The translations under genes were made by a program, and so were the position numbers. A stretch of 64,000 nt of DNA, taken from positions 3,348,001 through 3,412,000 of the forward strand of contig NZ_CP021323.1 of assembly GCF_002155145.1 (NCBI RefSeq), in the 5' to 3' direction. The stretch comes from Kushneria konosiri (lineage in GTDB: Bacteria; Pseudomonadota; Gammaproteobacteria; Pseudomonadales; Halomonadaceae). Shown here piece after piece: positions 4,155 to 63,510 of the stretch. The notes under the pieces were generated by a model that did no database searches, was not told where the DNA came from, and saw only the letters and a list, made by a program, of their open reading frames with translations. Numbering within the stretch: position 1 is the first letter of the stretch; the number at the start of each line of letters is the position of its first letter.

Positions 4155-5801
4155 ATGGATCAGACACGCGTACAAGTTCGCCCCCGTCGCCGCTCTGAGA
4201 TTGAAATATTACCGCTTGGCGGCTGCGGTGAAATCGGCATGAACCTGATGCTTTACGGCTTTCAGTCTCGATGGCTGATGGTCGATTGTGGGATGGCCCT
4301 GCGCCAGGATCTCCACGACACCCCCTTGCAGATTCCTGATATCTCGTCGCTGGCAACGCTTGGCATCCGCCCGGAAGCCATTGTCATCACTCATGGACAT
4401 GAGGATCATCTCGGGGCCCTGGGATGGCTATGGCCACGCCTGGGATGCCCTGTATATGCAACACCACTGGCGGCAGGTATTGCGCGTCAAAAGCTTGTAG
4501 AGCAGGGTCTGGCCACCGACGCCATACGCACCTTTGCACCAGGGGATCATTTCAATGCGGGGCCCTTCTCCGTACAAAGCATCAATGTCGCCCACTCCAT
4601 ACCGGAAAGCGTGTCGCTACTGCTCGAAGTAGATCGACACCGAATCCTGCATACCGGCGATTGGAAAATTGATCCTCACCCTGTATTGGGCGCTAAAACC
4701 CTCGAGCAGGACTTTGCCCGCCTTGCCCCTGTCGATCTTGTCGTGGGTGACTCTACCAACGCCATGGTGGAGAATCACTCACACAGCGAAAGCGAGGTAG
4801 CAGCAACCCTTGAGAAGCTCATGGAAGGCTGCAAGGGCCGAGTCGTTGTCAGCTGTTTTGCCAGTAACCTGGCGCGTATTCTGGCGACAGGGCGAGCGGC
4901 AAAACGTCATCATCGACGCATTGCCCTGCTCGGCAGAGCCATGGAAAAAATGGTGCGTCTGGGACGCGAACTGGGATACCTGAACGATTTTCCAGATATC
5001 GTGCCGCTGTCTGATATCGGTTATCTCCCGCCTGAGGAAATTCTGATACTGGCCACGGGCAGTCAGGGGGAACCTCGCGCCGCCCTCTCCCGCCTGGCAG
5101 TCAATCAACATCCAGCCCTCGAAATCGAAGCTGGGGACTCCATCATCTTTTCATCGCGCGCCATCCCGGGTAATGAAAGCGCCGTTATGCGTCTGCAACA
5201 GGCTTTTACGCAAAGAGGCGCTCACGTCTATAGCGATGAGGCGCACCCCGGACTGCATGCATCAGGTCACCCAGGCCGAGATGAATTGCTTAGCATGTAT
5301 CGGTGGATCAGACCTTCACATCTGTTGCCGGTTCATGGGGAGACTGATCATCAAAAGGCTCACTGTGAAATCGCAGGAACGCTTGGCATCGAAAGCTCAA
5401 TACTTCCCGTTAACGGACAGTGGCTACGCTGGAATGGCAAACGCATGACACTGGAAAGCACTTTAACGCTTTCTCCAGTCATTATTTCGCAGCGCAAAAG
5501 AGCCAGAAAGTCTTCAAATCGGCAAAACGATACCGTCATTGTACTTCCGGTCATTTATCAGGCAGACACTGCACAGTGGCAACGCGTAGGCAGAATGCTC
5601 ATTGACAGTCAGATCGAAACTTTCGTGGATGAAGACACCCTTGGGGATTGGGTAGACATTACGCTGGAAGGAATGACCGCTCGCTCTTCAAGGGAACTGG
5701 CACATTTGCTGGAGGTTCTCGCCAATCGATGGCTCAATGAGCAACTTAGGCAATCTTCAAGAGTCATGATCGATGTCGTCGACACAACACTGAACGAATA
5801 G
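4155..5801 (+). CDS. RNase J-like metallo-beta-lactamase/beta-CASP ribonuclease
   Basis: This 548-residue protein has the RNase J layout. An N-terminal metallo-beta-lactamase domain carries HGHEDH (residues 80-85), a second-shell histidine in NVAHSIPES, and GDW then VGDSTNA. A beta-CASP insert follows (SCFASNLARI, LATGSQGEPRAALSRL). After that come LHASGHPGRDEL and PVHGETDH, the typical RNase J closing motifs, and a C-terminal domain of about 120 residues. RNase J enzymes cut and 5'-trim RNA using two zinc ions. They are usual in Gram-positive bacteria and patchy in gammaproteobacteria, which mostly rely on RNase E. The true substrate here is not known. It is monocistronic, ending at a bidirectional terminator. 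Confidence 0.85.
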   Translation: MDQTRVQVRPRRRSEIEILPLGGCGEIGMNLMLYGFQSRWLMVDCGMALRQDLHDTPLQIPDISSLATLGIRPEAIVITHGHEDHLGALGWLWPRLGCPVYATPLAAGIARQKLVEQGLATDAIRTFAPGDHFNAGPFSVQSINVAHSIPESVSLLLEVDRHRILHTGDWKIDPHPVLGAKTLEQDFARLAPVDLVVGDSTNAMVENHSHSESEVAATLEKLMEGCKGRVVVSCFASNLARILATGRAAKRHHRRIALLGRAMEKMVRLGRELGYLNDFPDIVPLSDIGYLPPEEILILATGSQGEPRAALSRLAVNQHPALEIEAGDSIIFSSRAIPGNESAVMRLQQAFTQRGAHVYSDEAHPGLHASGHPGRDELLSMYRWIRPSHLLPVHGETDHQKAHCEIAGTLGIESSILPVNGQWLRWNGKRMTLESTLTLSPVIISQRKRARKSSNRQNDTVIVLPVIYQADTAQWQRVGRMLIDSQIETFVDEDTLGDWVDITLEGMTARSSRELAHLLEVLANRWLNEQLRQSSRVMIDVVDTTLNE

Positions 5802-49064: not shown

Positions 49065-49076
49065 CGAGGCAGGACT
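49065..49076. repeat. Left attachment half-site of the island
   Basis: CGAGGCAGGACT matches exactly the 3' part of tRNA-Arg at 63441-63452. It sits 60 bp after the mscS stop, where the island begins, and marks the expected far end of an integration at the tRNA. Confidence 0.7.
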
Positions 49077-49300: not shown

Positions 49301-50215
49301 TCATTCGTGGTACAGCTTTAAATCGCGAATAGCAACAAACGCACGATTGGTCTCCGCAGCGCAACGTGTCTTCTCCTCTAGGACGTCGATCAACGAAACT
49401 TGACGTGAGAGGACTTCGAACAGGTCAAGCCCGTCGACGCAAATCAGATTAGTTTGCCGCCCGCGTGAAAACGCTTCCAGTCCACCGGCGGTGAATCCGG
49501 AATTGCTGACGAACAGACCCCGCGACCAAGACGCTTTACCAGCGACCTTTCCCGAGAACGTCATCAAGTCGGCGAAGCCAATCTGCGGCCCATGCCATTT
49601 GGCTTCAACCAAGTAGGTCTGCCCGTGCAGTTTGAAGCTGCCATCGATTTGCTCCCCAACGAGCCGAAACGCACCACGAGGCGCTAATCCGGAGCCAGCG
49701 AAAAGCTCATTCAGAAACCCCTCGAAACGAAGGCCACGCGCTTGTGGGTTCAGCTTCGTGATTTCGATGAGTTGCGTCGCCAGTTCCTGTGCTTTGGCCT
49801 TACTCAGCGACTCAGCCATCTGAGGTGGAGGTTCTTCGGCCTTTGGCTGGACGAAGCTGTTGAGGAAGCCCGGATCAAGCAACTCCGGTATCTTGAATTC
49901 CACGCTTGGGAGAAGACCGTTCAGACGATCGATTTCCGTCCGAGTCAGAGGGTTCCCTTTGCCGCGCCGGTAAGTCATCGCTTGCCGGACGATCGTGATT
50001 ATCAACTTCGTGAAATGGGACCGCCGATACTCAAGCGTGGACGTCAGAAGCTGGACGATCGCCGGCCTCTTGCTTCCCGGAATCCACAGCTCACCGATGC
50101 CGGCCTGTGCCGCCGCCAGCGGAAAGGCCGTCTTGTTGTTTCCACTTCCCGGGAGGAAGTCGTAGAAAAGATCGGCCAAGTCTTCGACCGTCTGTGCTTC
50201 GCGGAATGAAAGCAT
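49301..50215 (-). CDS. Mrr-like restriction endonuclease, third gene of a defence operon
   Basis: This 304-residue protein joins an N-terminal helical module (residues 1-110, [16 protein letters not shown]... and [20 protein letters not shown]) to a C-terminal Mrr-type nuclease. The nuclease has the PD-(D/E)XK pattern ([20 protein letters not shown], with Asp then Glu-x-Lys) and [13 protein letters not shown]. Such enzymes cut foreign or modified DNA. The start is 1 bp after the stop of the helicase gene, so the three genes form one operon. I do not recall it as a standard part of Gabija. It could equally be a linked second system. Confidence 0.8.
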
Positions 50216-50216
50216 G

Positions 50217-52034
50217 TTAGTCGTCCTCGGCCTCCTCTATGCGCGCTTCAAGCTCGTTCAGGAAGGGTGAGCGCCCCCAGTGCATTCTCCCGCGGCCCGT
50301 ATCGACATAACCGGAATACAGCATGTGAATTTCATCGCGGGCGCGCGTCAGGCCCACGTAGAATAGGCGGCGGCTTTCCCGCCGTGCCGCAGGAAGTTCG
50401 TCGCGCCAAGGCAAGCTGCCGAAATCTAGCCCCACCATTATGACCACGTCGTACTCGCAGCCCTTGGCGGAATGCAGGGTCAGAAGGTTGAGGTGAAGCG
50501 GCGAGCCATCGCGACTGCCAAGGTTTGCGAGGTCGAGATCGGCTAGCGCGCCACCAACTGCGAGCGCAGTCGACATGCGTTCGACCTGGTCGGCCTGATC
50601 CGCGAGACTTGGCTCGGTTTCGATCAGCGCATCGAGCATTTCGTTGCGCAAGGGCGCGACAAAGTCGCGGGCAAGCCCATCATCTACTCTAAGCGACCAC
50701 AGAAGGCGGGTAAGGCTTTGCAGCTCCGCGCGAGCCTTCTCCTCCGATATTCGGGCCTTATGAAAGCCAATCCAGCGATCCAGCAGGCCACGCAGTTGGG
50801 GGCGCGCCTCCCGCCACCCGCCCGCGCACCAAGCCGCACAGTCCTCGATCCAGCTCGTGAGCGCGACCTTGCGATAGGGCGCCGCCGTGTCAACCCGCAC
50901 AAAGTCGAGGCCTGCCTTCGTAATGGCATCCGCAACTACGTTGCCGGCGCGATAGTCTCGATAGAGGATCGCGATGTCGCCGAGCGCCCGGCCGTGCTTG
51001 GCCGCAAGCGCCGTGGGAATGATCTCGGCGATCGCATGCGCTGCCTGCCCCTTCAGGCCGTCGTCGCATTCAACCATCGCGATAACAGCCTCGCGGTCCG
51101 GATCGTTCGACTGATAGCCGCGTGCCTCGCCCAGAGCCATTTCCGAGGCGCTGACAATGCTTGCAGCTGAACGGTAGTTCAGTTGAAGCTGTACCCGCTC
51201 GACATCGTCGCGTTCAGCCAGCTCCTGCAAAAGAGCTCCATCCGCGCCAGTGAAGCCGTAAATCGATTGGTCTGGGTCGCCAACGGCAAACAGGCGGACA
51301 CCTCCGTCGAACGCCATCCGCTTGACGATGCGGTGCAGCGCCACGCCCAAGTCCTGATATTCGTCGACCGCTAGGACAGGAAACTTCGCCTGCATAAGCG
51401 GCAGCACCCAATTATGCTCCGATACCAGCCGCTCGCCGAAGATTACAATGTCATCGAAATCGATGAGACCTGTTCGCCGCAGTTCAGCTTCGTAGCTCTC
51501 CGCCCAAGCCGCAAGCTCCTCCTCAGCCGTCCAGTCTTCCGACGTTCGATCAAGGATCGACCGTCGATGGCGACCGAGCTCCATCGGCTTATAGGGATGA
51601 CCTGCGCCGAAGAGCCTGTCGCCGATTCGACGCATTGCTTGATCGCTCTGCCGCTGCGTGGCAACGGCAAGGGGAAACGGCACCGGAAGATCGGCAAGAC
51701 GACCATAAGGCATCAGCAGATGTCTCAGGCAGAAGCCATGGACAGTGCCGATGAAGAGGTTCGGCGCCTCCCGCAGGCCCAGCCGTTCTAGGCGGCGCGT
51801 CAGCTCACGCGCGCACTCTTGGCTATAGGTGATGCATGCCGCACCTCGCGGCGCGCGCACGTCCTCAGCCATGACCCTGGCAAGCTTGAGCACCAGCGTC
51901 TTGGTCTTGCCGCTGCCAGGGCCTGCGAGCATCACGCAGTTTCCCGTCGAGTCATAGGCAGCTTGCTGTCCAGGATTTCTGGCCAAATCAGCTGCTTGGG
52001 TAAGATATGCAGCGCTAACACTACGCAAGGGCAT
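50217..52034 (-). CDS. UvrD/Rep-family DNA helicase, GajB-like
   Basis: From the ATG at 52034 (605 residues) this superfamily 1A helicase has all motifs: Walker [12 protein letters not shown], motif [15 protein letters not shown], motif [16 protein letters not shown], motif [17 protein letters not shown] and motif [20 protein letters not shown]. GajB of the Gabija defence system is a UvrD-like helicase partner of an OLD nuclease. The start overlaps the end of the preceding OLD gene by 14 bp, consistent with translational coupling. At about 600 residues it is longer than typical GajB. Confidence in helicase is high, in GajB moderate. Confidence 0.85.
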
Positions 52035-53802
52035 CGCGAATGTGCTCCAGCGCCTGCCGGATGTAGTCCGGGCACATATCTTCATCGACGTGTGGCGCTA
52101 AGGCCTGAGCGAAGCGCCCTTTACCGATCCGTTCGATGAGCTTGATCAAGTGCTTCTCATCAAGGGTGTTGGTATCGTCAACCCAGCCCTGGATCACCTC
52201 CCGGGTTTTATTGATCGATAGCTCCTCCTCGATGACATGCTGCATCGCTTCGGCAAGACCGCTGGTGAAGAGCTCCGGCTCGAGCGTATTGCTGTTAACG
52301 AAGTAGCCGAACGGTTCGGCGTGCGCGATCACGGCATCGGCGTCCAATGGATCGTAGTTTACGCCATCCTCGACCAGCCGCAGCACATTGACCAACCGTC
52401 GGCGAACTAGCGGTGGGCGTGCACCATTTGGATCCCGGTCCGTCAGAATAACGTGCGGTATATTTAGTCCCCTCGGCCCCAACAACTTCACGTAGGGCGT
52501 GAAGTTTGTGCCACTTACGGAGCAGACGGTGATGCCCAGCATATCGAGCGGGATGTCTAAGGCCTCGGCAAATGCAGGGATGAGAAACTTCTCGGCATCG
52601 CCTTCAACGAGGATCACGCCTCGCGCGAAGAAAATCTCACCACGGCTGACATCGATGTAACGTTGCAGATCAGCCTCATCGCGTGTCGTCAGGGGCGCTG
52701 TGGCCGTGGACACTACAGTTGTCGCCTCCTCGCCTGCGTTATGCCGGAGCAGGACGATCGAGCGGATCGGGGTCACGCTCGCGATATGCGGCGAATGCGT
52801 CGTAAGGATGTTTGTGAGCGGCGGCGTGTCTTCCTCCCCGTCCCCAGCCCCGCCGAGGAAGTATCTGTAGACGAGCCGCTGTACATGCGGGTGAAGGTGC
52901 GCTTCGGGCTCTTCGACCACGAAGAACGTATGGTCGCGCTCGCCATCCGTGACCAGGCGATCAAGCTCAAGGCTTTTCAGCGCTAGGAAAATCAGATTAG
53001 CGGTGCCGAGGCTGGCGTCGCCAATGCCGCGCGCACCATTGTCGATCAGAAGCCGGAGGCTTCGCAGCAAAGCATCGACGCGGGTTGGCGCAAGACCAAG
53101 CGTGAGTGGAACGGCATGCTGCTCACCTGCAACAGCGATCAGACGTTCGCTGATGCGCCGCGCGGTGGCAACCACTTCGGCATGACCAGCAAGCTCGGCT
53201 TGCGCCTCGCTGACCTGCTGCTGGATTTCGTCGCGCGCGTCTTCGTCCAGCGAGGTCGCCAGCTCCTCGATGAGAGGCCTCAATGGCGAGTTCCGCCAAC
53301 TCGACAGGTCCTTCTCTGCGTCGCGCAGCGCAACCTGTACGTCGAGCGGCAGCATCCGGCGAAAGGCCGAGCCGATCGACATATCGGGGTCGTCGCCGCC
53401 GAAAATGATGTACTCGTAGTCGGCCAGGCTCTCAGGCTCGCGGGCGAGATTTGCCTTTGGCTGAAAGCGGTATGTCAGACGAGCGACCATGGGTGGGCCC
53501 GGATCGACCACGCAGTCATTGAGATGCGCCATCAATCGCGGATTGTCTGTAAAATCAGTCAGATCAACTGAGATTTCGATGGTCTCGCCAAGTTTTTCCT
53601 CGCCCAGCCCATCCCAGAAATGTTCGAGTCCGAGCAGGCGGTCGCGTTCCGAAAGTCCCGGATCCAAGACCAACTGCAGGGCGCGAATGAAATTGCTCTT
53701 GCCGACCTTGTTCTCACCGACAATAACAATGCTCTCGCCGGTCTCGACGTCAATGTCCGAGAAATTTGCGAAATTGCTTATTTTTATTCGTGAGATGCGC
53801 AA
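52021..53802 (-). CDS. OLD-family ATPase-Toprim nuclease, GajA-like
   Basis: This 593-residue protein has an N-terminal ABC-type ATPase, with Walker A VGENKVGKSNF, Walker B TFFVVEEPEAHLHPHVQRL and the switch histidine in NILTTHSPHIASV. A C-terminal Toprim nuclease domain has ILVEGDAEKFLIPAFAEAL and ILTDRDPNG. Class 2 OLD proteins beside UvrD helicases are GajA of Gabija, an antiphage system that senses nucleotide depletion and cuts DNA. It is the first gene of the operon. The 640 bp upstream hold no clear gene and should contain the promoter. Confidence 0.85.
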   Translation of the reverse strand: MRISRIKISNFANFSDIDVETGESIVIVGENKVGKSNFIRALQLVLDPGLSERDRLLGLEHFWDGLGEEKLGETIEISVDLTDFTDNPRLMAHLNDCVVDPGPPMVARLTYRFQPKANLAREPESLADYEYIIFGGDDPDMSIGSAFRRMLPLDVQVALRDAEKDLSSWRNSPLRPLIEELATSLDEDARDEIQQQVSEAQAELAGHAEVVATARRISERLIAVAGEQHAVPLTLGLAPTRVDALLRSLRLLIDNGARGIGDASLGTANLIFLALKSLELDRLVTDGERDHTFFVVEEPEAHLHPHVQRLVYRYFLGGAGDGEEDTPPLTNILTTHSPHIASVTPIRSIVLLRHNAGEEATTVVSTATAPLTTRDEADLQRYIDVSRGEIFFARGVILVEGDAEKFLIPAFAEALDIPLDMLGITVCSVSGTNFTPYVKLLGPRGLNIPHVILTDRDPNGARPPLVRRRLVNVLRLVEDGVNYDPLDADAVIAHAEPFGYFVNSNTLEPELFTSGLAEAMQHVIEEELSINKTREVIQGWVDDTNTLDEKHLIKLIERIGKGRFAQALAPHVDEDMCPDYIRQALEHIRDALA

Positions 53803-54440
53803 ATGTCTCTCCTCTGATTACATATTTTACTGTTTTGCACACTGTTATAGCCATTATCTAGACTGCATGCGCAGTTATATCTATCGATCTCGCCAGTAGC
53901 GTCCCTGTGTGCCTTTAAGGACGCTTGTATTAACAGCAAGTGTCCGCTTTGGGTCGTAACCGGTCAGCTTGCATGCCTTCTCATGACCCTACTGATGGCT
54001 TAACCCCTCAGTTACGATGAGCCCTAGACTTCTATGCTCATTTATAGGGTTGATCCACTTAGCACCCCGACCATCAATCTCTCTTCCAATTCTCTTCCCA
54101 CAGCGCGCTGTCGACTCCCCGCCCCGCCTGCGCGCTAAATGGGTCGGTTTTATTGCACCCTTGCAGTGCCTGCTGGGCCGCCCCAGTGCTGGGCCGCGCA
54201 GTGGTTTTGGGGCCCGAAAAAATTACGCGTTTTCTTGCATTTCACACCGCCGTTGGAAGGTGGTGTGGGGTAAAAAAGCGGCTTTCTGGCCACCATGCCG
54301 GCCCCTGCCTCAAAAAGGGTGTCTCCTGTGGTGCCCTGCAAGCTCTTGTGGTCTTTTCAGCACAATATTCGAGCGCGCTGATTAAGTAAAGTTGTGTAAC
54401 GATGAAGTGAGACAAAAGCAGCATTCATCACGACCCTTTT
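53803..54440. other. Gene-free stretch upstream of the defence operon
   Basis: No convincing gene; an open frame at 54017-54385 has odd composition and no domain. The short GC-rich block at 54115-54131 reads AGGCGGGG on the minus strand, resembling the core of P2/P4 cos ends, next to a self-complementary CAGCGCGCTG (54101-54110). A poly-A/T boundary near 54216 may include promoter elements. Confidence 0.35.
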
Positions 54441-54893
54441 TCGCTCGCCAGAATGACATGATTACGCCCCGATCCAGCCCTTTCTGGCCTCGCTCTTGTT
54501 AAGACTGATTCCCATTCCCCTGATACGTTTTCACACTTGTGATTTTTGAGTGGGAACACCGGGAACAGTGGGAACAAGGCTCAACCATGCGGGTTCCAGC
54601 GTGGGAACATTGTTCCCACTGAAAAATCGAGTGGGAACAGAAACGGGCAAAAAACCCCCTATATGGGTAGGTGTTCCCGTTTGTTCCCACTTTTTAGTGT
54701 CTTACCGGGAACAAGCGAGCCCGCCTGTGGCGCGGCTTCCAGCGAGGTGTTCCCACTGTTCCCGCTGTTCCCGGTCGTTTTCAGGTTCCTGTGAAAACCT
54801 TCCTCACCGTTCCAGCGCTCGATGAGGGTCGTCTGGCTATCATCACCGCCGTTTTGGCGATCCTTTCCTCTGGCAAGCGAAAGGGGTTTGGGT
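54441..54893. repeat. Long direct repeat copy A with twelve GGGAACA iterons
   Basis: This is the first of two diverged copies of about 450 bp, the second starting exactly 800 bp later. Within 54552-54772 are twelve heptamers GGGAACA, six in this orientation and six reverse (TGTTCCC), at 54552, 54561, 54570, 54603, 54611, 54633, 54672, 54682, 54707, 54748, 54757 and 54766. Those at 54603/54611 form a perfect palindrome with one central base. The layout fits an iteron-type origin or a copy-control locus such as P4 ori/crr. Copy B has GGCAACA at the matching places. Confidence 0.85.
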
Positions 54894-54906
54894 CGTGGCC
54901 ACCATA

Positions 54907-54937
54907 CAAAAAGCCCCGCACATGGCGGGGCTTTTTT
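54907..54937. terminator. Terminator downstream of the small membrane gene
   Basis: The stem AGCCCCGC/GCGGGGCT has A and T runs on both sides. On the minus strand it ends the 54954-55151 gene. Confidence 0.75.
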
Positions 54938-54953
54938 GTATCAATGATCATTA

Positions 54954-55151
54954 TCAGACGGCTTTATCGTCGCTGTCTTCATCCTCACGGCGGGTCAACT
55001 GCCCTTCCCGGTTGCGAAGGTTTGCTTGAGGGGTATTTGTCTGCGTGTACTCAACCTGTGTGCGGCTGTTGGTCTGGCGATGATCTACATAGTGAAGCAG
55101 TGCAAGCTGTGCGATCAGAAAGCCACAGCAGATCAGAATACCTTTCAGCAT
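54954..55151 (-). CDS. Small membrane-anchored protein between the iteron arrays
   Basis: This 65-residue protein starts MLKGILICCGFLIAQLALLHYVDH, one hydrophobic helix, then a polar tail ending REGQLTRREDEDSDDKAV. It resembles small inner-membrane spanins or single-pass accessory proteins in general shape only. It sits exactly between the two iteron repeats. The ribosome-binding site is weak. Function unknown. Confidence 0.5.
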   Translation of the reverse strand: MLKGILICCGFLIAQLALLHYVDHRQTNSRTQVEYTQTNTPQANLRNREGQLTRREDEDSDDKAV

Positions 55152-55240
55152 GTCTTTTCTCTTGGTTCAGGAAAGGGGTGACAAGGCTCATAACGTTAAC
55201 CCATCCATATCAATGTTCTCCAGTCAGACCGTGATAAACC

Positions 55241-55693
55241 TCGCTCGCCAGAATGAAATGATCACGCCCCTATCCAGTCGATTCTGGCCCCTCTTTTGTT
55301 GAGACTGATTCCCATTCCCCTGATACGTTTTCACACCTGTGATTTTTGGGTGGCAACACTGGCAACAGTGGCAACAAGGCTCAACCATGCGGGTTCCAGA
55401 GCGGCAACACTGTTGCCAGTCAAAAAGTCACTGGCAACAGAATGAGGATGAAACGCCCCTATATGGTGTGGTGTTGCCAGTTGTTGCCACTCTTTAGTGA
55501 TTTACTGGCAACACGTCAGCCCGCCTGTGGCGCGGCTTCCAGCGATGTGTTGCCTTGTTGCCACTGTTGCCACTCGATTCAGGTTCCTGTAGCAATCCTT
55601 CCTCACGGTTCCGACCGCCAATGAGGATCGTCTGGCCATCCTTACCGCTGGTTTTGCCGATCCTTTCCTCTGGCGAGCGAATGGGTTTGGGTG
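55241..55693. repeat. Long direct repeat copy B with twelve GGCAACA iterons
   Basis: This is the second copy of the 450-bp repeat. The flanking segments (for example TCGCTCGCCAGAATGA, GACTGATTCCCATTCCCCTG, GCTCAACCATGCGGGTTCCA, CCGCCTGTGGCGCGGCTTCC) match copy A at a constant distance of 800 bp, with a 2-bp shift near 55555. Twelve heptamers GGCAACA/TGTTGCC lie at 55352, 55361, 55370, 55403, 55411, 55433, 55472, 55482, 55507, 55548, 55556 and 55565. Every one differs from copy A at the third base only, G to C. Confidence 0.85.
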
Positions 55694-55752: not shown

Positions 55753-56550
55753 TCAGTGGGTCTGCTGACGCTGCGATTCCAGCTCCCGCGCCCGCTGCTG
55801 AATGCTGTTTTTTGGGCCGTTGTATTGCTGCTCGCAGGCCAGTAGTGGCACGACACGCAGCACGGTCAGGCTTTCCGGTGCTGCTGGCGTCTCCTGCTCC
55901 GGATCGATCCGGCGGGTCAGCCCCATCAGACGTTCGGCCAGCTTCTGCTGGAAGCGCTTTGCCAGCTCCTGCTCAACCCGGGCGCGGTGATCAGCGGGAC
56001 CATGCTCCTGATTGTTCGGCTCACTCATCACATCATGATCGGTCTTGCGCTTGACCTCCGGCAGCAGCGACAGCAGATGCCGCCCTTCGGGCAGATCCAG
56101 CAGCGCGGCGGTGGCCTTCTCGAAGGCCTGCTCGACCTCTAGCCCCCAAGCTTGCTGCTGCGCACCCTCATACTGACGGCGGGCGTCGATCACGGCGATG
56201 TGCTGCTCGATCAGCGGCGCCTGCAATTCGCCGGCCATGGATTCCAGCTCTTCGGCGGTCTCGCGGCTTTCACTGACCGAGCGTTTGATTTGCCGAATCT
56301 CCTTGATCAGCTCACCGTTGCTCTCGCGCAGCAGATCGCGCCAGCGGCGATCGTTGCTATCGGCTTCTTCCCAGGCCGCTGCTGCGCCCTTGCTGAAGCG
56401 CTCGACGCGCTGTTGCAGGTCGGTCAGCATCTCGCGTTGGCTCAGGTACTCATTTCGGGTCTGTTCATGTCGGGTCATATGGCTGGTCATGGGGGCAGCT
56501 CCTTCCTGTGTGGTGGCTTTGGTCGTGGTCTGGGCGTTGGCAGCAGTCAT
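55753..56550 (-). CDS. Coiled-coil satellite protein, possibly Psu-like
   Basis: From the ATG at 56550 (GGAG seven bases upstream) the protein has 265 residues and is almost wholly helical and charged. The segment of about residues 40-150 (EYLSQREMLTDLQQRVERFSKG, RQIKRSVSESRETAEELESMAG, EQHIAVIDARRQYEGAQQQAW) has the look of phage polarity-suppression (Psu) relatives, which block Rho and decorate P4 capsids. The match is by general pattern only. It is the last gene of the replication operon. Confidence 0.45.
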   Translation of the reverse strand: MTAANAQTTTKATTQEGAAPMTSHMTRHEQTRNEYLSQREMLTDLQQRVERFSKGAAAAWEEADSNDRRWRDLLRESNGELIKEIRQIKRSVSESRETAEELESMAGELQAPLIEQHIAVIDARRQYEGAQQQAWGLEVEQAFEKATAALLDLPEGRHLLSLLPEVKRKTDHDVMSEPNNQEHGPADHRARVEQELAKRFQQKLAERLMGLTRRIDPEQETPAAPESLTVLRVVPLLACEQQYNGPKNSIQQRARELESQRQQTH

Positions 56551-56624
56551 GGGGTGTCTCCATGTGGTGGATGAGGGGACGACCCAAGGGCCGCCCCGGT
56601 TTGCGGGGGTAAAGGTGAGCCGGT

Positions 56625-58400
56625 TCACTGGGCGCCGCCCATGGGCTCCAGTTTGTCGGGGTCGATGACAAAGAAGCGGGCACTGCCGCCGCCGGGCAGG
56701 CGGTAGTTCTTCTGTTTACGCCCTTCATCCATCCGGGCCAGCACGTCATGCGTGCCCAGGGTGCGAAGGATGCGGTCGCGGCTGTAGCCCTCGACGGCCT
56801 CGACCAGTGCGGCGCGGTTGAACAGATAGAGCCTTCGCCCGTTGTCGATCTCATAGAAACCGGCCCGGTGCGAGACATGGGCGGCCATCTGGGCATTCAC
56901 ATCGGAGAAGCGGCTATCGCCGTGCAGGGCGATGAAGTCGGCCAGCGCGGTCAGTATCTGCCGGTCTTCGGCGTTCCCGTCGCCGATGGTGGCCAGCCAC
57001 TCCATGAACAACAGCCGGCAGGCATGGATGGCCGTTTCCGGTGGCCACGGCAGGATCTCCCATTCACTGGCCAGTTCCCCGGCCAGCGCCATGACCGCAA
57101 AGCGATCCGCCACACGTCCGGCCTGCGAGCTGGTGACGTTGAAGCGCTTTCTGATCTCGCCAAAGCGCCACGGCAGGCCGTTGGCCACGTCTTCCTCGAT
57201 CAGGTGTTCCACCAGTGCCGGGCCGGCGTGGCCGTAGTGGCGAGAGACCGCCCCGGTCAGGATGCGGTGGAAGGTTTCGCCGTCCATGCCGTGCACGTCG
57301 TCAAAGGCGCGGTATTTTCTTGTGCCGGCGTTGATGTCCACCATGCGCAGTTCGGCGCCGGCGTGGGCCGTGCTACCCCCCATTGCCGCGTGATCGGAGA
57401 GCGAGCGCTCGCCGCTGGAAAGGGCCAGCAGACGCCAGTAGTTTTTGGGCCGGCCTTCACGCTCGCGTGTCATGGTGCCCTTGCCGGTGCCGTTGGCAAT
57501 CGCGTAGGCGTGGCCTTGTATCTGTTTGGGGCTGGCCCGGCTCATCTCGTCGTTGATCATCACGGTGTCATTGCGCGATGACGCCTCGATCTCGACCCCG
57601 CCGCCGGACATGTCCCACGACACCTTGAAGCGATCCGGTGGTCCCCAGATCGTCGCGGCCACGTCCTGCGCCAGTGATTTGCCGCTCGATGAATCTCCCA
57701 CCAGATGAATGCCGCCGCCGTTGACGCCCACCTTTTTCAACAGTGGGCCAGCGAGTGCGCAGCAGACCGACAGGATCAGCACCGGGTTGCCCAGGCATGG
57801 CGTGGCCACCTCTTGCTGCCATGCTGCCAGACTGCCCCGGGTATCGAAGATTTTCGCCTCGCGCCCCGAACTCTGGAAGCGTACCCGGGTGCTGCCGATG
57901 ATCCGCTCGGGCAGCACGAAGGCGCCGCTGCGCTCATGCCAGCCGGGCCGGGTGGTGGTCTCCAGCACCACATCTGGGGTGTGGTGGCTGGCCACGAACG
58001 CCGGAATGTACTTGCGGTGGTGATAATCGACGATCAGCCCCTGACGCATCAGCGGCTTCAAGACGTCATCGCCCTTGCCGGCCAGCGCCTCCATGGGAAT
58101 GACATATTCCAGTTCCCGGCCCCGGTGATAGAAGCGCACCAGCCGCCCGATGCTGCCGTCGTCGCTGTCGATGGTCTCGGCCTCGATATACAGCGGCGAG
58201 CAGATCCACAGATCGAACGGCTGCCCGGGTTCATCGGGGGACGTCTGCTTGATGCCGTGATACCAGGTGCCGGCACGATAGAGCCGACCGTCGATATTCA
58301 CCGGGCCGTCATAGGTGGCAAAGCCGGGGCGCTGGATGCCTTCACGCTCGGGCACATTGGGGTTGCCCACCAGTGAGAGGTGCGGTTCGTGGTTGCTCAT
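56625..58400 (-). CDS. DUF927-domain replication helicase/ATPase
   Basis: This 591-residue protein has a DUF927-type region (about residues 145-450), found in replication helicases of satellites and plasmids. Its P-loop is IHLVGDSSSGKSLAQDVAATIWG. A Walker B-like IND in TVMINDEMSRA and further PKNYWRLLALSSGERSLS follow. The C-terminal part has a winged-helix-like GRLYLFNRAALVEAVEGYS. It starts in a four-base overlap with the primase gene and likely unwinds the satellite origin. Confidence 0.82.
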   Translation of the reverse strand: MSNHEPHLSLVGNPNVPEREGIQRPGFATYDGPVNIDGRLYRAGTWYHGIKQTSPDEPGQPFDLWICSPLYIEAETIDSDDGSIGRLVRFYHRGRELEYVIPMEALAGKGDDVLKPLMRQGLIVDYHHRKYIPAFVASHHTPDVVLETTTRPGWHERSGAFVLPERIIGSTRVRFQSSGREAKIFDTRGSLAAWQQEVATPCLGNPVLILSVCCALAGPLLKKVGVNGGGIHLVGDSSSGKSLAQDVAATIWGPPDRFKVSWDMSGGGVEIEASSRNDTVMINDEMSRASPKQIQGHAYAIANGTGKGTMTREREGRPKNYWRLLALSSGERSLSDHAAMGGSTAHAGAELRMVDINAGTRKYRAFDDVHGMDGETFHRILTGAVSRHYGHAGPALVEHLIEEDVANGLPWRFGEIRKRFNVTSSQAGRVADRFAVMALAGELASEWEILPWPPETAIHACRLLFMEWLATIGDGNAEDRQILTALADFIALHGDSRFSDVNAQMAAHVSHRAGFYEIDNGRRLYLFNRAALVEAVEGYSRDRILRTLGTHDVLARMDEGRKQKNYRLPGGGSARFFVIDPDKLEPMGGAQ

Positions 58401-59524
58401 TGGGCACCCCCTGTCTGGCCAGTGCCTCCGGCCTTGCCGGTGCCTTTCTTCTGGCGAGCGTGGGGTTTGCGGTGCTCCTCTGGTGACTGGCCGGCCTGCT
58501 GTCGGTCGCGGCGGCGTTCACCGTCGATGCGCTGCCGGTGCCAGCAATACAGGTCGTTGAAGTCGGTAGCGTTCTCGGGGGCGCCCTCCGGCCACTTGGG
58601 GTAGAGCACCAGTGCGCCGGCGGCGACCGCGGCGTCGTTGGCCATCTTCCTGCCGGGGTTGCCCTCTGTCTGACGGTCGTCGTCACCGGCGATCACCAGT
58701 TCCAGCGAACCGTTGAGCGCCCTTTTCATATAGAGCGCCACGGCTTCCAGATTGCCGGCGTTCATGGCGCAGGCCACGGGATCGCCGGTCAGCCGGTGCA
58801 GGGTGGCGCCGGTGGCCCAGCCCTCGCAGACGAACAGACGCCCGCCGGGGATCAGATCCCCGATCAGCGAGTAGGCGCCGGTCACGCGACCGCCTTTCAG
58901 AAAGCGCTTGCGCCCGTTGGGCATGATCCATTGCAGATTGACCAGCTCGCCCTCGGCGTACAGCGGCACCATCAGCCAGCCACGACCGGACTGGCGCAGG
59001 TTATAGACCGACAGCTTTTTGGCGATCAGGTACGGGTGGTGCTTATTGGCCGGTCGGGCGCTGTCCCAGTAGCGCCGGGCACGTTCTGCGGCGGCCTCAC
59101 GGTTGCGGGCCTGCTCCTGCTCCATGGCCTTCTGGCGGGTGTCGAACGCCTCAATGGCAGCGGCGTCCAGCACCGGCGAGGAATGCACAGGCATACCGCT
59201 GCGGGCAGGCCGGAACACACCGAGCCCCAGCCGGGCATCGATCTCCATGGCGGCATCGACCTGTCGGCAGCCGCGCAGGTAACTGAGAAGGGACACCAGA
59301 TCACTGCCCCGGGCGTCACTGTCGGCAAAGTCGTTCCACTTGCCGCTAGACAGCGACACGCCAAAGGAACCGGCGTGACGATCCCCCCGAACGGTATTGC
59401 GGGCCTGCCATTCGCTGCCCTGTCGCTTGCCTTCGGGCAACCATTCGGAGAGCAGCAGCTCGGCGTATTCAAGGGCCACCGCGCTGACGCGGCGGATCTT
59501 GGCAAAGGTCTCATGCTCAGCCAT
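58397..59524 (-). CDS. Toprim-domain primase of the satellite
   Basis: This 375-residue protein starts MAEHETFAKIRRVSAVALEYAELLLSEW. An N-terminal DNA-binding/primase-like part has WQARNTVRGDRHAGSFGVSLSSGKWNDFADSDARG. A Toprim core follows, with RLFVCEGWATGATLHRL (acidic residue) and LELVIAGDDDRQTEGN (acidic triad). With the DUF927 helicase this takes the place of the single P4 alpha protein. A Gln/Arg-rich tail ends the protein. It overlaps genes on both sides by 4-8 bp. Confidence 0.85.
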   Translation of the reverse strand: MAEHETFAKIRRVSAVALEYAELLLSEWLPEGKRQGSEWQARNTVRGDRHAGSFGVSLSSGKWNDFADSDARGSDLVSLLSYLRGCRQVDAAMEIDARLGLGVFRPARSGMPVHSSPVLDAAAIEAFDTRQKAMEQEQARNREAAAERARRYWDSARPANKHHPYLIAKKLSVYNLRQSGRGWLMVPLYAEGELVNLQWIMPNGRKRFLKGGRVTGAYSLIGDLIPGGRLFVCEGWATGATLHRLTGDPVACAMNAGNLEAVALYMKRALNGSLELVIAGDDDRQTEGNPGRKMANDAAVAAGALVLYPKWPEGAPENATDFNDLYCWHRQRIDGERRRDRQQAGQSPEEHRKPHARQKKGTGKAGGTGQTGGAQ

Positions 59525-59810
59525 GGGACACCTCCCGGCTGTGCGCACGGCCCGCGATATTCATCAGGTCGTCAGCGTCGTTGAGCAGCAGATAGGCGGC
59601 GTGGGCGATGCTGGACAGGTCGCGGCCATCGATGGCACCGCCCTTGCTCTCACCGCCCAGGGTGGTGACGGTAAACAGCATGTCGCGGGCTGCCGACAGG
59701 CGCAGACCGGCGCAGTCGTGCAGCTCTTCAAAGCTGGCGTGGCGATCGATCAACAGCGCCGGGCGCTTTTGGGTCGGATGAGCGGTCAGCGGGACGTATT
59801 GCTCAGCCAC
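59517..59810 (-). CDS. Small helical protein of the satellite replication operon
   Basis: From the GTG at 59810 this protein has 97 residues (VAEQYVPLTAHPTQKRPALLIDRHASFEELHDCAG...). The second half, SKGGAIDGRDLSSIAHAAYLLLNDADDLMNIAGRA, is helical. It overlaps the primase start by 8 bp and the preceding gene by 8 bp. No domain known to me; operon position suggests a role in replication or its control. Confidence 0.6.
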   Translation of the reverse strand: MAEQYVPLTAHPTQKRPALLIDRHASFEELHDCAGLRLSAARDMLFTVTTLGGESKGGAIDGRDLSSIAHAAYLLLNDADDLMNIAGRAHSREVSHG

Positions 59811-60515: not shown

Positions 60516-60770
60516 CTAGCAATCGGTCTCGATGCTGGGGCCCCGGTGCAGATCGGTCAGCAGATGACGGTTCGCGGGGTGTTCGGCGTGATGGCCGGGG
60601 GCGTTGCCTTCCTTGTGCTGCATGACGGACACAAAGCGCTCACTGCCGCCGCGCACGATCTCGCGGCCCGGCAGGTTGACGGCGCCGGTGAGGGCCGAAT
60701 CCATCGACTCCATATCCGCTTCGGTAAAGTCGATGCTCTGATTGCCGATTTTCATGGTGAAGCGTTTCAT
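60516..60770 (-). CDS. Small protein of unknown function after the AlpA-type gene
   Basis: This 84-residue protein begins MKRFTMKIGNQSIDFTEADMESMDS and ends GPSIETDC. Its ATG overlaps the AlpA stop by four bases. The first 35 residues look like a small alpha/beta fold; the end is His-rich (HKEGNAPGHHAEHPANRH). No family is recognised. Operon position ties it to early satellite functions. Confidence 0.6.
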   Translation of the reverse strand: MKRFTMKIGNQSIDFTEADMESMDSALTGAVNLPGREIVRGGSERFVSVMQHKEGNAPGHHAEHPANRHLLTDLHRGPSIETDC

Positions 60771-61048
60771 GCGCGGGCCTCCGGTCGGGCAGTAGTGTTC
60801 AGGGCATTGTTGCGCTGGGCCAGTCGTTCGGCGATCCAGCCGTCGATCTCTTCTTCCAGCCAGGCGACGCTGTTGTCGCCAATCGGCACGGGCGCCGGGA
60901 AGGTGCCGTCGCTAACACCCTTGTAGATCGATGAACGGCTCTTGCCGGTCTTGAGCTCCACCTCACGACGGCGCAGCAGGCGGTTGCCCAACTGGATGCG
61001 CTCGACGTGCCGGCAGGCGCTGGTGGTGGATGGTGTTGATGCCGTCAT
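60767..61048 (-). CDS. alpA: AlpA-family regulator/excisionase
   Basis: This 93-residue protein has the AlpA-type winged helix-turn-helix LLRRREVELKTGKSRSSIYKGVSDGTFPAPVPIGDNSVAWLEEEIDGWIAERLAQRN. AlpA proteins of CP4-57 and P4 relatives activate integrase genes or act in excision. The AGGAAA site before the ATG fits. It is followed by a coupled small gene and the leader of the replication operon. Confidence 0.88.
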   Translation of the reverse strand: MTASTPSTTSACRHVERIQLGNRLLRRREVELKTGKSRSSIYKGVSDGTFPAPVPIGDNSVAWLEEEIDGWIAERLAQRNNALNTTARPEARA

Positions 61049-61253: not shown

Positions 61254-61448
61254 TTAGCCGGTCGTCCGGTTTTCACTGTTGGCACTGTCGTTCACGGTTT
61301 GGACAGTAAAATCGCCTCTACAGCGGTAATCACACGCAGAGTGCGAGCATTCCAGGTAAAAGCGTGAATAGTGCGGGTGAAGCCGCCGGCTGGTGCGAAT
61401 ACGCATACGGCTGCCGCAGCGTTCACAGTGCAATCCCAGTCCTTGCAT
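61254..61448 (-). CDS. Ogr/Delta-type zinc-finger transcription activator
   Basis: This 64-residue protein starts MQGLGLHCERCGSRMRIRTSRRL and has CERC...CSHSACDYRC, the four-cysteine metal site of P2 Ogr and P4 Delta activators. Those proteins switch on late phage genes of a P2-type helper. Its presence strongly supports a P4-like satellite that answers to a P2-like phage. The frame is open 29 codons further upstream but without homology. Confidence 0.85.
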   Translation of the reverse strand: MQGLGLHCERCGSRMRIRTSRRLHPHYSRFYLECSHSACDYRCRGDFTVQTVNDSANSENRTTG

Positions 61449-61537
61449 GGTGTTTATCCAGTAGTTCGCCTGTGTGTTGCCGGAACGCAAAGCAGTGCTT
61501 CTGCCTTCCTGAGCGGGCCTGTCCCGCCTCACCAACT

Positions 61538-61607: not shown

Positions 61608-62045
61608 TTATAGCGATAGCTGCATATGAAGGAGCGGATAGGGCTTGCCTTGACCATCAAGCGGTGAACGACCGATCACCGTAAAGCCCAGGTGCTTATA
61701 GAAACCCAGTGCCTGCTCGTTCTGCTCGTTGACGTCTACCTTGGTGACACCTTGGGTGCTTATTACATGCCGGGCAAGTGACGCTCCGACACCTTGGCCG
61801 CGTGCTTCCGGTGCGATGAAAAGCATCTCGATATTGCCATCGCTTACACCGCAGAATCCCAGAATTTTATCGTCATCGCTCTTGGCCACGCTCAGGCTGA
61901 CGGCCTTGAAATACTCATTCAGGATAAGCGGCTTCAGTTCAATGAGGTCACTCTCAGCCAGAAAATCGTGCGTCGCCCGAACTGAGGCCTCCCATATCTC
62001 TATGAGCTGCTGATGCTCTACATTTGCTGCGCTCTCGACCTTCAT
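61608..62045 (-). CDS. GNAT-family acetyltransferase (island cargo)
   Basis: This 145-residue GNAT protein starts MKVESAANVEHQQLIEIWEASVRATHDFL. It has the acetyl-CoA loop FIAPEARGQGVGASLARHV and FYKHLGFTVIGRS. Its AGGAG site is eight bases before the ATG at 62045. It begins 16 bp after the integrase stop, so it may be cotranscribed with the integrase. The substrate is unknown; in satellites such cargo sometimes acts in defence or toxin modules. Confidence 0.82.
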   Translation of the reverse strand: MKVESAANVEHQQLIEIWEASVRATHDFLAESDLIELKPLILNEYFKAVSLSVAKSDDDKILGFCGVSDGNIEMLFIAPEARGQGVGASLARHVISTQGVTKVDVNEQNEQALGFYKHLGFTVIGRSPLDGQGKPYPLLHMQLSL

Positions 62046-62061
62046 CAATCGCTCTCCTGCT

Positions 62062-63267
62062 TCACCCGATTTTTCGAATCACAAAGCTTTCGAGCCTGTC
62101 TGCCCAAGCTTGCATCATGGCCGGCCTTTGCTCCGGTGCCATATGCTCGGCATGGGTATAAACGCCCTGAATGCCCGGCAGCTTGTGCGAGAGCTGCATC
62201 TCGATCCACTCCCCCGGATATCCCATTTCCTTAAGGCCGGTAGCGATGGTGTGGCGTGTGCCATGGGGAACGTGAACACCTTCAAATCCCATGCGCTTCA
62301 ATGCCATCCCAAAAGCCATATTGGACATGGGCCGGGTAATGTCGTTGCGACCGGGAAACAGCAGCGTATGGTGCCCAGTGATGCGGTGCAGGTCGTTAAG
62401 CACTTCCAGCGCCTGTGTGGGCAAAGGCACGTTGTGATCCTTGCCCATCTTCATGCGCTCGCCCGGTACGCGCCATATGGCCTTCTCAAGATCGAACTCT
62501 CGCCAACAGGCCTGCCTCAACTCACCGGGCCTGACAGCGGTCAGTAGAAGCAGTTTCAGACCATATTTCACCAGCACGTTGCCCTGGTATCGCTCGATGG
62601 CTTCTACCAGTTCGGGCAGCTCCTGCTGTGATACGTGGGTCATGTTGCGCTTTTTACCGCGCTGGAGCGCCACGCCCAGATCATTGAGCGGATTATTTGC
62701 CGCCCTGCCCGTCACGACAGCCAGCCGGTAAATATCCCGGCAGAAGAAATGCACGCGGCGTTTTTGTTCGTGCTTGCCCTGCCCTTCCAGCTTTCGAAGG
62801 ATCTCCAACCACTCCATGGGGGTAATGTCGTTGATCGGACGATCTCCCACATACGGGAAAACGTGATTTTCCATTACCGACCAGCTCACCTTGGCCCGAT
62901 TGGAGGATGCTTTCCACTGCTGCACCTTGCCGCTGTGCCACTCTCTGGCCAGCGTACGGAAGTGATCGGCATCCGGGTTTTCCCGCTCTTCTTTTTCGGT
63001 CTGACGCTGTTTGGCAGGGTCAATACCCTGGGCGATCAGTCGGCGGGCATCTATGGCTTTCTCACGGGCCTCTGCAAGCGTCACGGTGGGATAGTTGCCA
63101 AAGCTCATCATATTGCGCTTTTTGGTGTCGTCGGGCCGGGTATAGCGAAAACGCCAGGCCTTGCGACCATTGGGCTTTACGATGAGCTGCAAACCGTCGC
63201 CATCGGATAGCGTCACGGTTTTCTCGGATGGCTTGGAGGCCTCTATTTTCCTGATGGTAAGCGGCAC
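62062..63267 (-). CDS. int: P4-type tyrosine integrase
   Basis: This tyrosine recombinase inserts the island at tRNA-Arg. The N-terminal arm-binding domain (LTIRKIEASKPSEKTVTLSDGDGLQLIVKPNGRKAWRFRYT) is the DUF4102 type. A core-binding domain and a catalytic domain follow, with Arg in AVRPGELRQACW, His in HGTRHTIATGLKEMG, and Tyr in GVYTHAEHMAPEQRPAMM. From the likely GTG at 63267 it has 401 residues, typical for P4 integrases; the frame continues 40 codons upstream without homology. It reads away from the tRNA, its promoter lying between GGTATACC repeats. Confidence 0.9.
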   Translation of the reverse strand: MPLTIRKIEASKPSEKTVTLSDGDGLQLIVKPNGRKAWRFRYTRPDDTKKRNMMSFGNYPTVTLAEAREKAIDARRLIAQGIDPAKQRQTEKEERENPDADHFRTLAREWHSGKVQQWKASSNRAKVSWSVMENHVFPYVGDRPINDITPMEWLEILRKLEGQGKHEQKRRVHFFCRDIYRLAVVTGRAANNPLNDLGVALQRGKKRNMTHVSQQELPELVEAIERYQGNVLVKYGLKLLLLTAVRPGELRQACWREFDLEKAIWRVPGERMKMGKDHNVPLPTQALEVLNDLHRITGHHTLLFPGRNDITRPMSNMAFGMALKRMGFEGVHVPHGTRHTIATGLKEMGYPGEWIEMQLSHKLPGIQGVYTHAEHMAPEQRPAMMQAWADRLESFVIRKIG

Positions 63268-63270
63268 AGT

Positions 63271-63322
63271 GGTATACCAAGAAGATTCTAACAAGGGGGT
63301 TATACCAAACAATATACCTTTC
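63271..63322. repeat. GGTATACC/TATACC repeats at the right island end
   Basis: GGTATACC (63271-63278), TATACC (63301-63306), TATACC (63313-63318) and ATACCTTTC (63314-63322) lie just upstream of the integrase coding region. Identical motifs occur at the left end (49135-49182). They are candidate arm-type sites that may also control int. Confidence 0.5.
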
Positions 63323-63433
63323 GGGCGCTGGATTGGGTAGGAACAGACAGGAACGGGGAGGCCTTGAAAGCGCTGTTTTTGCAGCATTTTCAGGGGTTTA
63401 AAGGACTGGGGAGGAATGCTTGGGAAGGGTCAG

Positions 63434-63510
63434 TGGCGCCCGAGGCAGGACTCGAACCTGCAACCCACGGCTTCGAAGGCCGTTGCTCTATCCAATTGAG
63501 CCACTCGGGC
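63434..63510 (-). tRNA. tRNA-Arg (anticodon TCG)
   Basis: The minus strand folds as a full cloverleaf: acceptor GCCCGAG/CTCGGGC, D-arm GGCTCAATTGGATAGAGC, anticodon stem ACGGC/GCCGT around CTTCGAA (anticodon TCG, reading CGA), and T-arm GGTTCGAGTCC. The CCA is encoded. Its 3' part is repeated at 49065-49076, so it is the attachment gene of the island. Confidence 0.95.
63441..63452. repeat. Right attachment half-site inside tRNA-Arg
   Basis: CGAGGCAGGACT is the T-arm/acceptor part of tRNA-Arg, and the identical 12-mer at 49065 lies at the far island end. The pair bounds about 14.4 kb. Confidence 0.7.

Follow-up and report, generated by a model that had tools for sequence, protein, structure and literature searches.

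The question raised by the stretch of Kushneria konosiri DNA analysed here (contig NZ_CP021323.1, positions 3,348,001 to 3,412,000; 64 kb in all, hereafter the window) was why an integrated satellite with one recognisable initiator should carry two origin-like arrays whose iterons differ by the same base at every site. The element comprises approximately 14.4 kb of the Kushneria genome. It encodes a DUF927 initiator helicase, and both arrays lie downstream of the helicase gene. Comparison with relatives suggests that the array nearer to the gene (array B) should be the origin of the resident initiator, and that the farther one (array A) is an orphan.

Each origin-like unit measured 440 bp (unit A, 54441-54880; unit B, 55241-55680) and contained twelve iterons. 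Heptamers were counted on both strands. All twelve were GGGAACA in array A (54552-54772; six on the plus and six on the minus strand) and all twelve were GGCAACA in array B (55352-55571), with zero mixing. The order and orientation of the iterons corresponded between the arrays. The twin repeats with twelve matched heptamers reported in a preliminary description of this DNA were thus confirmed, with units 800 bp apart from start to start and the final two iterons of array B shifted by one base relative to array A. Only 2 further copies of GGGAACA and 9 of GGCAACA were found elsewhere in the 64 kb, so the clusters lie far beyond chance (Poisson P approximately 2e-35 and 2e-27, respectively). 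A 300-nt stretch was 83% identical between the copies at the 800-bp distance. The inner spacers differed at 37 of 150 columns (25%), so the divergence of the two units exceeds the switched base. Two half-arrays surround a 32-bp centre of 50% AT, compared with 42% AT in the window. Inverted repeats (TCGCTCGCCAG / CTGGC(G/A)AGCGA) delimit each unit, the left arm being TCGCTCGCCAG in both (54441-54451 and 55241-55251) and the right arm CTGGCAAGCGA in unit A (54870-54880) and CTGGCGAGCGA in unit B (55670-55680). As candidate ends of a transposable unit the repeats gave a divided picture: the identity between relatives L061 and L053 ends at about the right repeat, yet the shared flanks of other relatives extend past it. 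The right flank of unit A is common to L049 and L050. A 65-aa open reading frame (ORF) without a PHROGs match (54954-55151, minus strand) lies between the units, and a heptamer scan of the window revealed no iteron cluster upstream of the initiator gene.

The specificity of the two arrays was approached through 31 elements, comprising that in the window and 30 relatives at 60% identity or more from 275 genomes of the family. Within these close relatives the iteron type of the array nearest to the initiator gene followed the predicted DNA-binding tail of the initiator. The window element, L048 and L050 have near-identical tails, and the nearest array of each is GGCAACA; L049 has a window-like body, a different tail and GGGTACA as its nearest array. 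The correspondence was traced to one residue, Asn or Lys at position 565, and to position 3 of the iteron. It was counted in 30 initiators at least 52% identical to that of the window, 26 on which the rule was seen and four from viral contigs. The count took the first cluster of at least five iterons in the 2,600 bases that follow the gene, and Asn/Lys labels were set by hand. L057 (no array), L075 and L076 (another heptamer, with Asn), L077 (broken gene) and L058 (hybrid array) were left out. Position 3 in the 22 nearest arrays of Asn initiators was C in 178 iterons, T in 11, A in 7 and G in 0 of 196. For the eight Lys initiators it was G in 83, T in 4 and C in 0 of 87. The four viral-contig initiators (52-61% identity) were examined after the rule was seen and all fit it (L149 and L204, Asn/C; L199 and L231, Lys/G); they form two pairs of near-identical tails. 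Six more of the ten viral-contig DUF927 relatives were uncounted, namely L210 and L235 (no array within 3 kb downstream), L248, and L189, L190 and L257, which are too distant. In L248, two arrays follow the DUF927 relative, each a mix of GGGTACA and GGTTACA, and the tail does not align.

The window initiator matched the structure of the SaPIbov1 Rep (8tch, E 6e-14) across its helicase part. Its tail model (mean pLDDT 75) has a winged-helix look, and residue 565, within QK[N/K]YRL, sits in a predicted strand following the last helix. The codon of Asn565 was placed at 56706-56708 (minus strand), a position derived by hand from the residue number. In a body tree of 28 initiators, the Asn or Lys state changed at least three times, the hybrid-array element L058 included. 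Sharp changes of identity were seen at the tail end of the initiator gene between the window element and L049, between L058 and L057, and between the window element and L050. Identity to L049 was 87-98% per 100 nt from -2500 to -301 and 80, 77 and 64% in the last 300 nt; identity to L050 was 71-88% from -1300 to -501 and 90-96% in the last 500 nt. These alignments show the part of the gene that encodes the tail being exchanged as a separate segment. Because the window initiator has Asn565, it would by the rule read array B, and array A would be an orphan. The earlier proposal of two origin-like arrays with different protein specificity was supported, and it can be sharpened: in close relatives, iteron type tracks the initiator tail.

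Differing iteron types were stacked in five of the 31 elements (window, L049, L050, L058 and L061). Read outward from the initiator, where C denotes GGCAACA and G denotes GGGAACA, the stacks were C, G in the window and L050; GGGTACA, C, G in L049; hybrid, C, G in L058; and a C-type array with variants followed by G in L061. The outward order was identical among stacked elements wherever types were shared. Exact GGGAACA copies numbered 12 in L049, 12 in L050 and 11 in L058. Neighbouring arrays in relatives were about 416, 772, 944, 762 and 495 bp apart; a meaning for the 800-bp spacing was rejected, since spacing varies among relatives. Between L049 and L058, a small ORF of approximately 103-118 aa was common to the interval from the first to the second array. 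Small ORFs lie between arrays in other elements too, as if origin units separated cargo cassettes.

The switch of twelve iterons was placed in time by the spacers. Among same-type arrays (nearest or GGGAACA) of the window element, L048, L049 and L050, inner spacers differed by 1-7%; between the window and L050 the differences were 6 of 151 columns for A and 7 of 150 for B. The same types recur in relatives with smaller differences than separate A from B, and recent concerted change or recent duplication in the window element was rejected on this ground. Of the earlier claim that selection or conversion had changed the same site in twelve iterons, the whole-array switch stood and must have occurred in the ancestry of A or B; it was not a recent event in the window element (25% between A and B against 1-7% within types). 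Farther away, window array B differed from the second array of L058 (GGCAACA) at 45 of 149 inner columns (30%), and window array A from the array of Salinicola L051 (GGGAACA) at 73 of 151 (48%), so at greater distance iteron type ceases to follow ancestry.

Signs of exchange were also seen in the units themselves. L061 and L053 were 96% identical 402-1951 nt after the L061 initiator, a segment holding the GGGAACA unit and a 335-aa ORF, and 83% identical in the initiator stretch. On the body tree the L061 initiator, which is adjoined by a GGCAACA-type array, falls in a different clade from that of L053. The nearest array of L058 lies approximately 1.87-2.09 kb past the DUF927 gene. In its right flank this array corresponds to the L049 GGGTACA unit, and in its middle to the second array of L058, so it looks like a gene-conversion hybrid caught part-way. 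A likely history, read from the sequences, is one of switching of initiator tail and origin with old or foreign origins left in place.

Array A showed little variation in its iterons. In the orphan GGGAACA units of the window element, L049 and L050, 0 of 84 iteron columns varied, against 49 of 357 columns in the rest of the unit (8 of 151 inner-spacer and 41 of 206 outer-unit columns; Fisher 2.5e-5). With L058 added, the figures were 1 of 84 and 127 of 356. The cognate arrays of the window element, L048 and L050 behaved similarly (1 of 84 iteron and 84 of 348 other columns varied).

The explanation preferred here would run as follows. The DUF927 helicase would be a self-loading initiator whose C-terminal tail probably binds the 7-bp iterons of the downstream 440-bp origin unit, one tail residue (Asn or Lys 565) pairing with C or G at iteron position 3 in this initiator group. 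Array B (C type) would serve the resident protein as the origin and probably fires with it. Array A (G type) would be an intact orphan origin, either a remnant of an exchange of tail and origin or an acquisition from another satellite. Its retention probably reflects action in trans by G-type initiators of co-infecting satellites, which would either replicate the resident element or be drawn off. Taken as a whole, with B as the resident's origin and A as an intact orphan kept for action in trans, the explanation stands in our judgement evenly poised between right and wrong.

Several observations weigh against it, and the first concern recognition. Fold searches with the tail model matched TcpK and 8tch weakly (8tch prob 0.92, E 0.15), and no solved structure was matched at E 0.001 or lower (best E 0.026). 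The L058 initiator is of the Lys type, and its nearest array holds three GGGTACA and five GGCAACA iterons. At 35-39% identity, L081, L082, L084 and L087 combine Asn with GGGAACA, and L083 combines Lys with GGGAACA, in a naive alignment. Three viral relatives at 22-30% identity, each closely followed by GGGAACA, carry Lys (L189, L257) or Arg (L190). Distant relatives below 40% identity, 10 of 37 listed places having been examined, were kept out of the residue count. The rule holds down to approximately 52% identity and has no simple extension beyond. The four distant Asn initiators with GGGAACA would fit a resident protein that reads both arrays with unequal strength, as a composite origin like P4 ori and crr, which carry an identical main iteron (X51522). 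GGGAACA is moreover one base from both GGCAACA and GGGTACA, an A-type array occurs in four of six Kushneria elements, and in L199 and L084 one iteron predominates across several arrays. L084 and L087 (approximately 35% identity) were each seen to have two GGGAACA arrays, approximately 8.9 and 4.8 kb apart, an arrangement more like P4 ori and crr. Against a composite origin, the nearest arrays of the close group had no G with Asn and no C with Lys, so the base at position 3 is discriminated, and L048 and the five Salinicola elements L051-L055 carry a single array each. A composite origin was judged unlikely. The preliminary description had named mixing of both heptamers within arrays of close relatives as a refutation; GGCAACA and GGGAACA shared an array in 0 of 41 elements. 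In L058, GGCAACA is mixed with GGGTACA, and among the 29 viral-contig arrays listed, the other type occurs once in L169 (9 and 1) and once in L235 (7 and 1).

The second group of contrary points concerns the upkeep of orphan arrays. Pairwise tests against inner spacers alone gave p values of 0.053, 0.091 and 0.54, and the arrays may have become alike through exchange between elements. In L049 and L058 the orphan GGCAACA arrays are truncated: exact iterons number 10 of 12 and one or both outer ends are gone, a state that has the look of decay. Unit A is missing from L048 except for its right end, so the unit is dispensable there. Broken units remain at L135 and L136 (G007), L138 (G001) and L137 (G186), and the Kushneria genomes G007 and G001 retain their fragments without an initiator match. 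The remains at L136 and L138 seem, by eye from the DNA, to adjoin a phosphoheptose-isomerase-like gene. Truncation, loss and broken remains are what would be expected if array A were a fossil, a former origin now functionless after a switch of specificity. A fossil would be harder to reconcile with three GGGAACA orphans in which no iteron column varies while the rest of the unit does, and with L058, which still has 11 of 12 exact GGGAACA iterons with inner spacers differing from the others at 27-30 of 151 columns. On balance the fossil was considered doubtful, though a serious contender.

The last point concerns the reader of array A. A search of the window's genome with the tail profile returned the resident initiator as its single match and no G-type initiator, so any other reader of A would come from outside. 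Across the family, the profile matched in 61 of 275 genomes, matches in G064 and G090 being outside the list of initiator relatives. K. avicenniae (G002) offers a possible reader in the same cell, since it has both L049, whose GGCAACA array is an orphan, and L050, which encodes an initiator predicted to be of the C type. The absence of a second resident reader by the tail profile, together with the constrained look of array A, would also suit a helper-phage replication protein or another DNA-binding protein, for which A would be a parasitic origin or a regulatory site. Similar DNA was absent from the 50,697 phage records searched, and array-like DNA had no match in phage or plasmid records. 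The orphan arrays share the geometry of initiator-linked arrays. Initiator relatives in viral contigs were not found by protein patterns, and some were found via the iteron pattern. Among the matches listed, 27 viral-contig loci had an array (at least five iterons, both strands), of which 10 also carry a gene for a DUF927 relative and 15 gave no match to any of the four window proteins used as queries. A reader of this kind was thought very improbable.

The element that carries the arrays is P4-like and is not termed a member of P4. It lies between two copies of a 12-nt core, CGAGGCAGGACT, at 49065-49076 and at 63441-63452, the latter inside a tRNA-Arg (tcg) gene (63434-63510, minus strand) that is the likely integration target. 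Within the element, an acetyltransferase-like gene (61608-62048) adjoins that of the integrase. The following genes are all on the minus strand. A tyrosine integrase (62062-63387), an Ogr/Delta-type zinc-finger protein (61254-61535), an AlpA-type regulator or excisionase (60767-61048) and a Toprim_3 primase (58397-59548) are encoded. The primase is encoded separately from the 591-aa DUF927 initiator helicase (56625-58400; Pfam DUF927 E 3.7e-61), which has a predicted winged-helix-like tail at its C terminus. Between the helicase gene and unit B lies the gene of a Psu-like protein of 291 aa (55753-56628), assigned by a moderate match to PHROG 6165 (E 1.4e-8) and without a Pfam match. P4-like satellite features were thus seen in the integrase with tRNA attachment repeats, the primase and helicase with downstream iterons, and the Psu-like, Ogr/Delta and AlpA proteins. 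No match to the Sid capsid-size protein was found among the 13 element proteins scanned against PHROGs, and five of the 13 had no PHROGs match at all, so a diverged form of Sid is possible. Beyond unit A, a P2/P4-type cos-like box (54110-54128, minus strand) agrees with the P4 left end at 14 of 19 bases in a count by eye. Its core is present in 21 of the 31 elements, oriented one way in the window element, L048, L049, L050 and L056 and the opposite way in the remainder. The cargo at 49301-53802 (minus strand) comprises an Mrr_cat nuclease and Gabija GajB and GajA (GajA/GajB by PADLOC, E below 1e-230); the relatives compared hold different ORFs at this position.

P4 requires both ori and crr. 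The preliminary description had named P4 as the closest parallel, and the likeness was borne out: in P4 too, iterons lie directly downstream of the primase-helicase gene alpha, as the two tandem repeats of crr, and Psu and delta have counterparts in the Psu-like protein and the Ogr/Delta-type protein, with the cos-like box a candidate counterpart of cos. P4 crr (4291-4590, X51522) consists of two repeats of 120 bp, each annotated with five type-1 iterons. Its main iteron, TGTTCACC, is the same as that of ori; it reads GGTGAACA and resembles GGGAACA. A single kind makes up the type-1 iterons of P4 (TGTTCACC accounts for 11 of 16, and the other five are off by one base), whereas elements of the window group have two to three differing arrays. 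Primase and helicase are split in the window element, and P4 has ori iterons, whereas an upstream cluster was not seen for the window initiator.

RepA_N is an initiator type unrelated to the DUF927 initiator. In the parts of the sources consulted, PLE satellites swap the DNA-binding domain of RepA jointly with the origin (PMC8263062), and the PLEs, compared here together with ICP1 Odn, replace the origin, whereas elements of the window group retain an old or foreign origin next to the new one. The available portions of work on SaPI describe Reps that recognise iterons just downstream of rep through a C-terminal domain (PMC7581432), and PICI origins are placed 3' of rep (PMC6092414). The window element is alike in its DUF927 initiator, in the match to 8tch and in the position of its iterons. 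PICI origins are described, in the passages seen, as two iteron sets flanking an AT-rich region, and extra origins of other specificity go unmentioned there. For SGI1 Rep/oriV with its IncC helper, an iteron origin downstream of rep likewise affects coexistence with another element, and an orphan array is not described in the part of that source consulted (PMC7433901). Covariation of initiator and origin and exchange of modules were already known. Satellites with two or three iteron arrays of differing specificity were not found in a literature search that was partly off subject and covered few subscription papers.

Within one initiator group, the comparison yields a candidate recognition rule of one residue and one base, for which natural variants allow a direct test. 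The stacks may record the sequence in which one origin specificity succeeded another. They also make a general question testable, namely how a replicon with a dozen matched sites changes specificity, perhaps through the addition of a new origin beside a retained old one. More broadly, and only tentatively, satellites may hoard intact origins whose specificity their own initiator has ceased to read, with the effect that the initiator of any co-infecting satellite would replicate the resident or be drawn off; origin stacks would then both record and take part in a contest of satellite against satellite over initiator specificity, turning on one amino acid and one base. For Kushneria and its relatives, the arrays suggest that islands of this type retain origins that belong to others.
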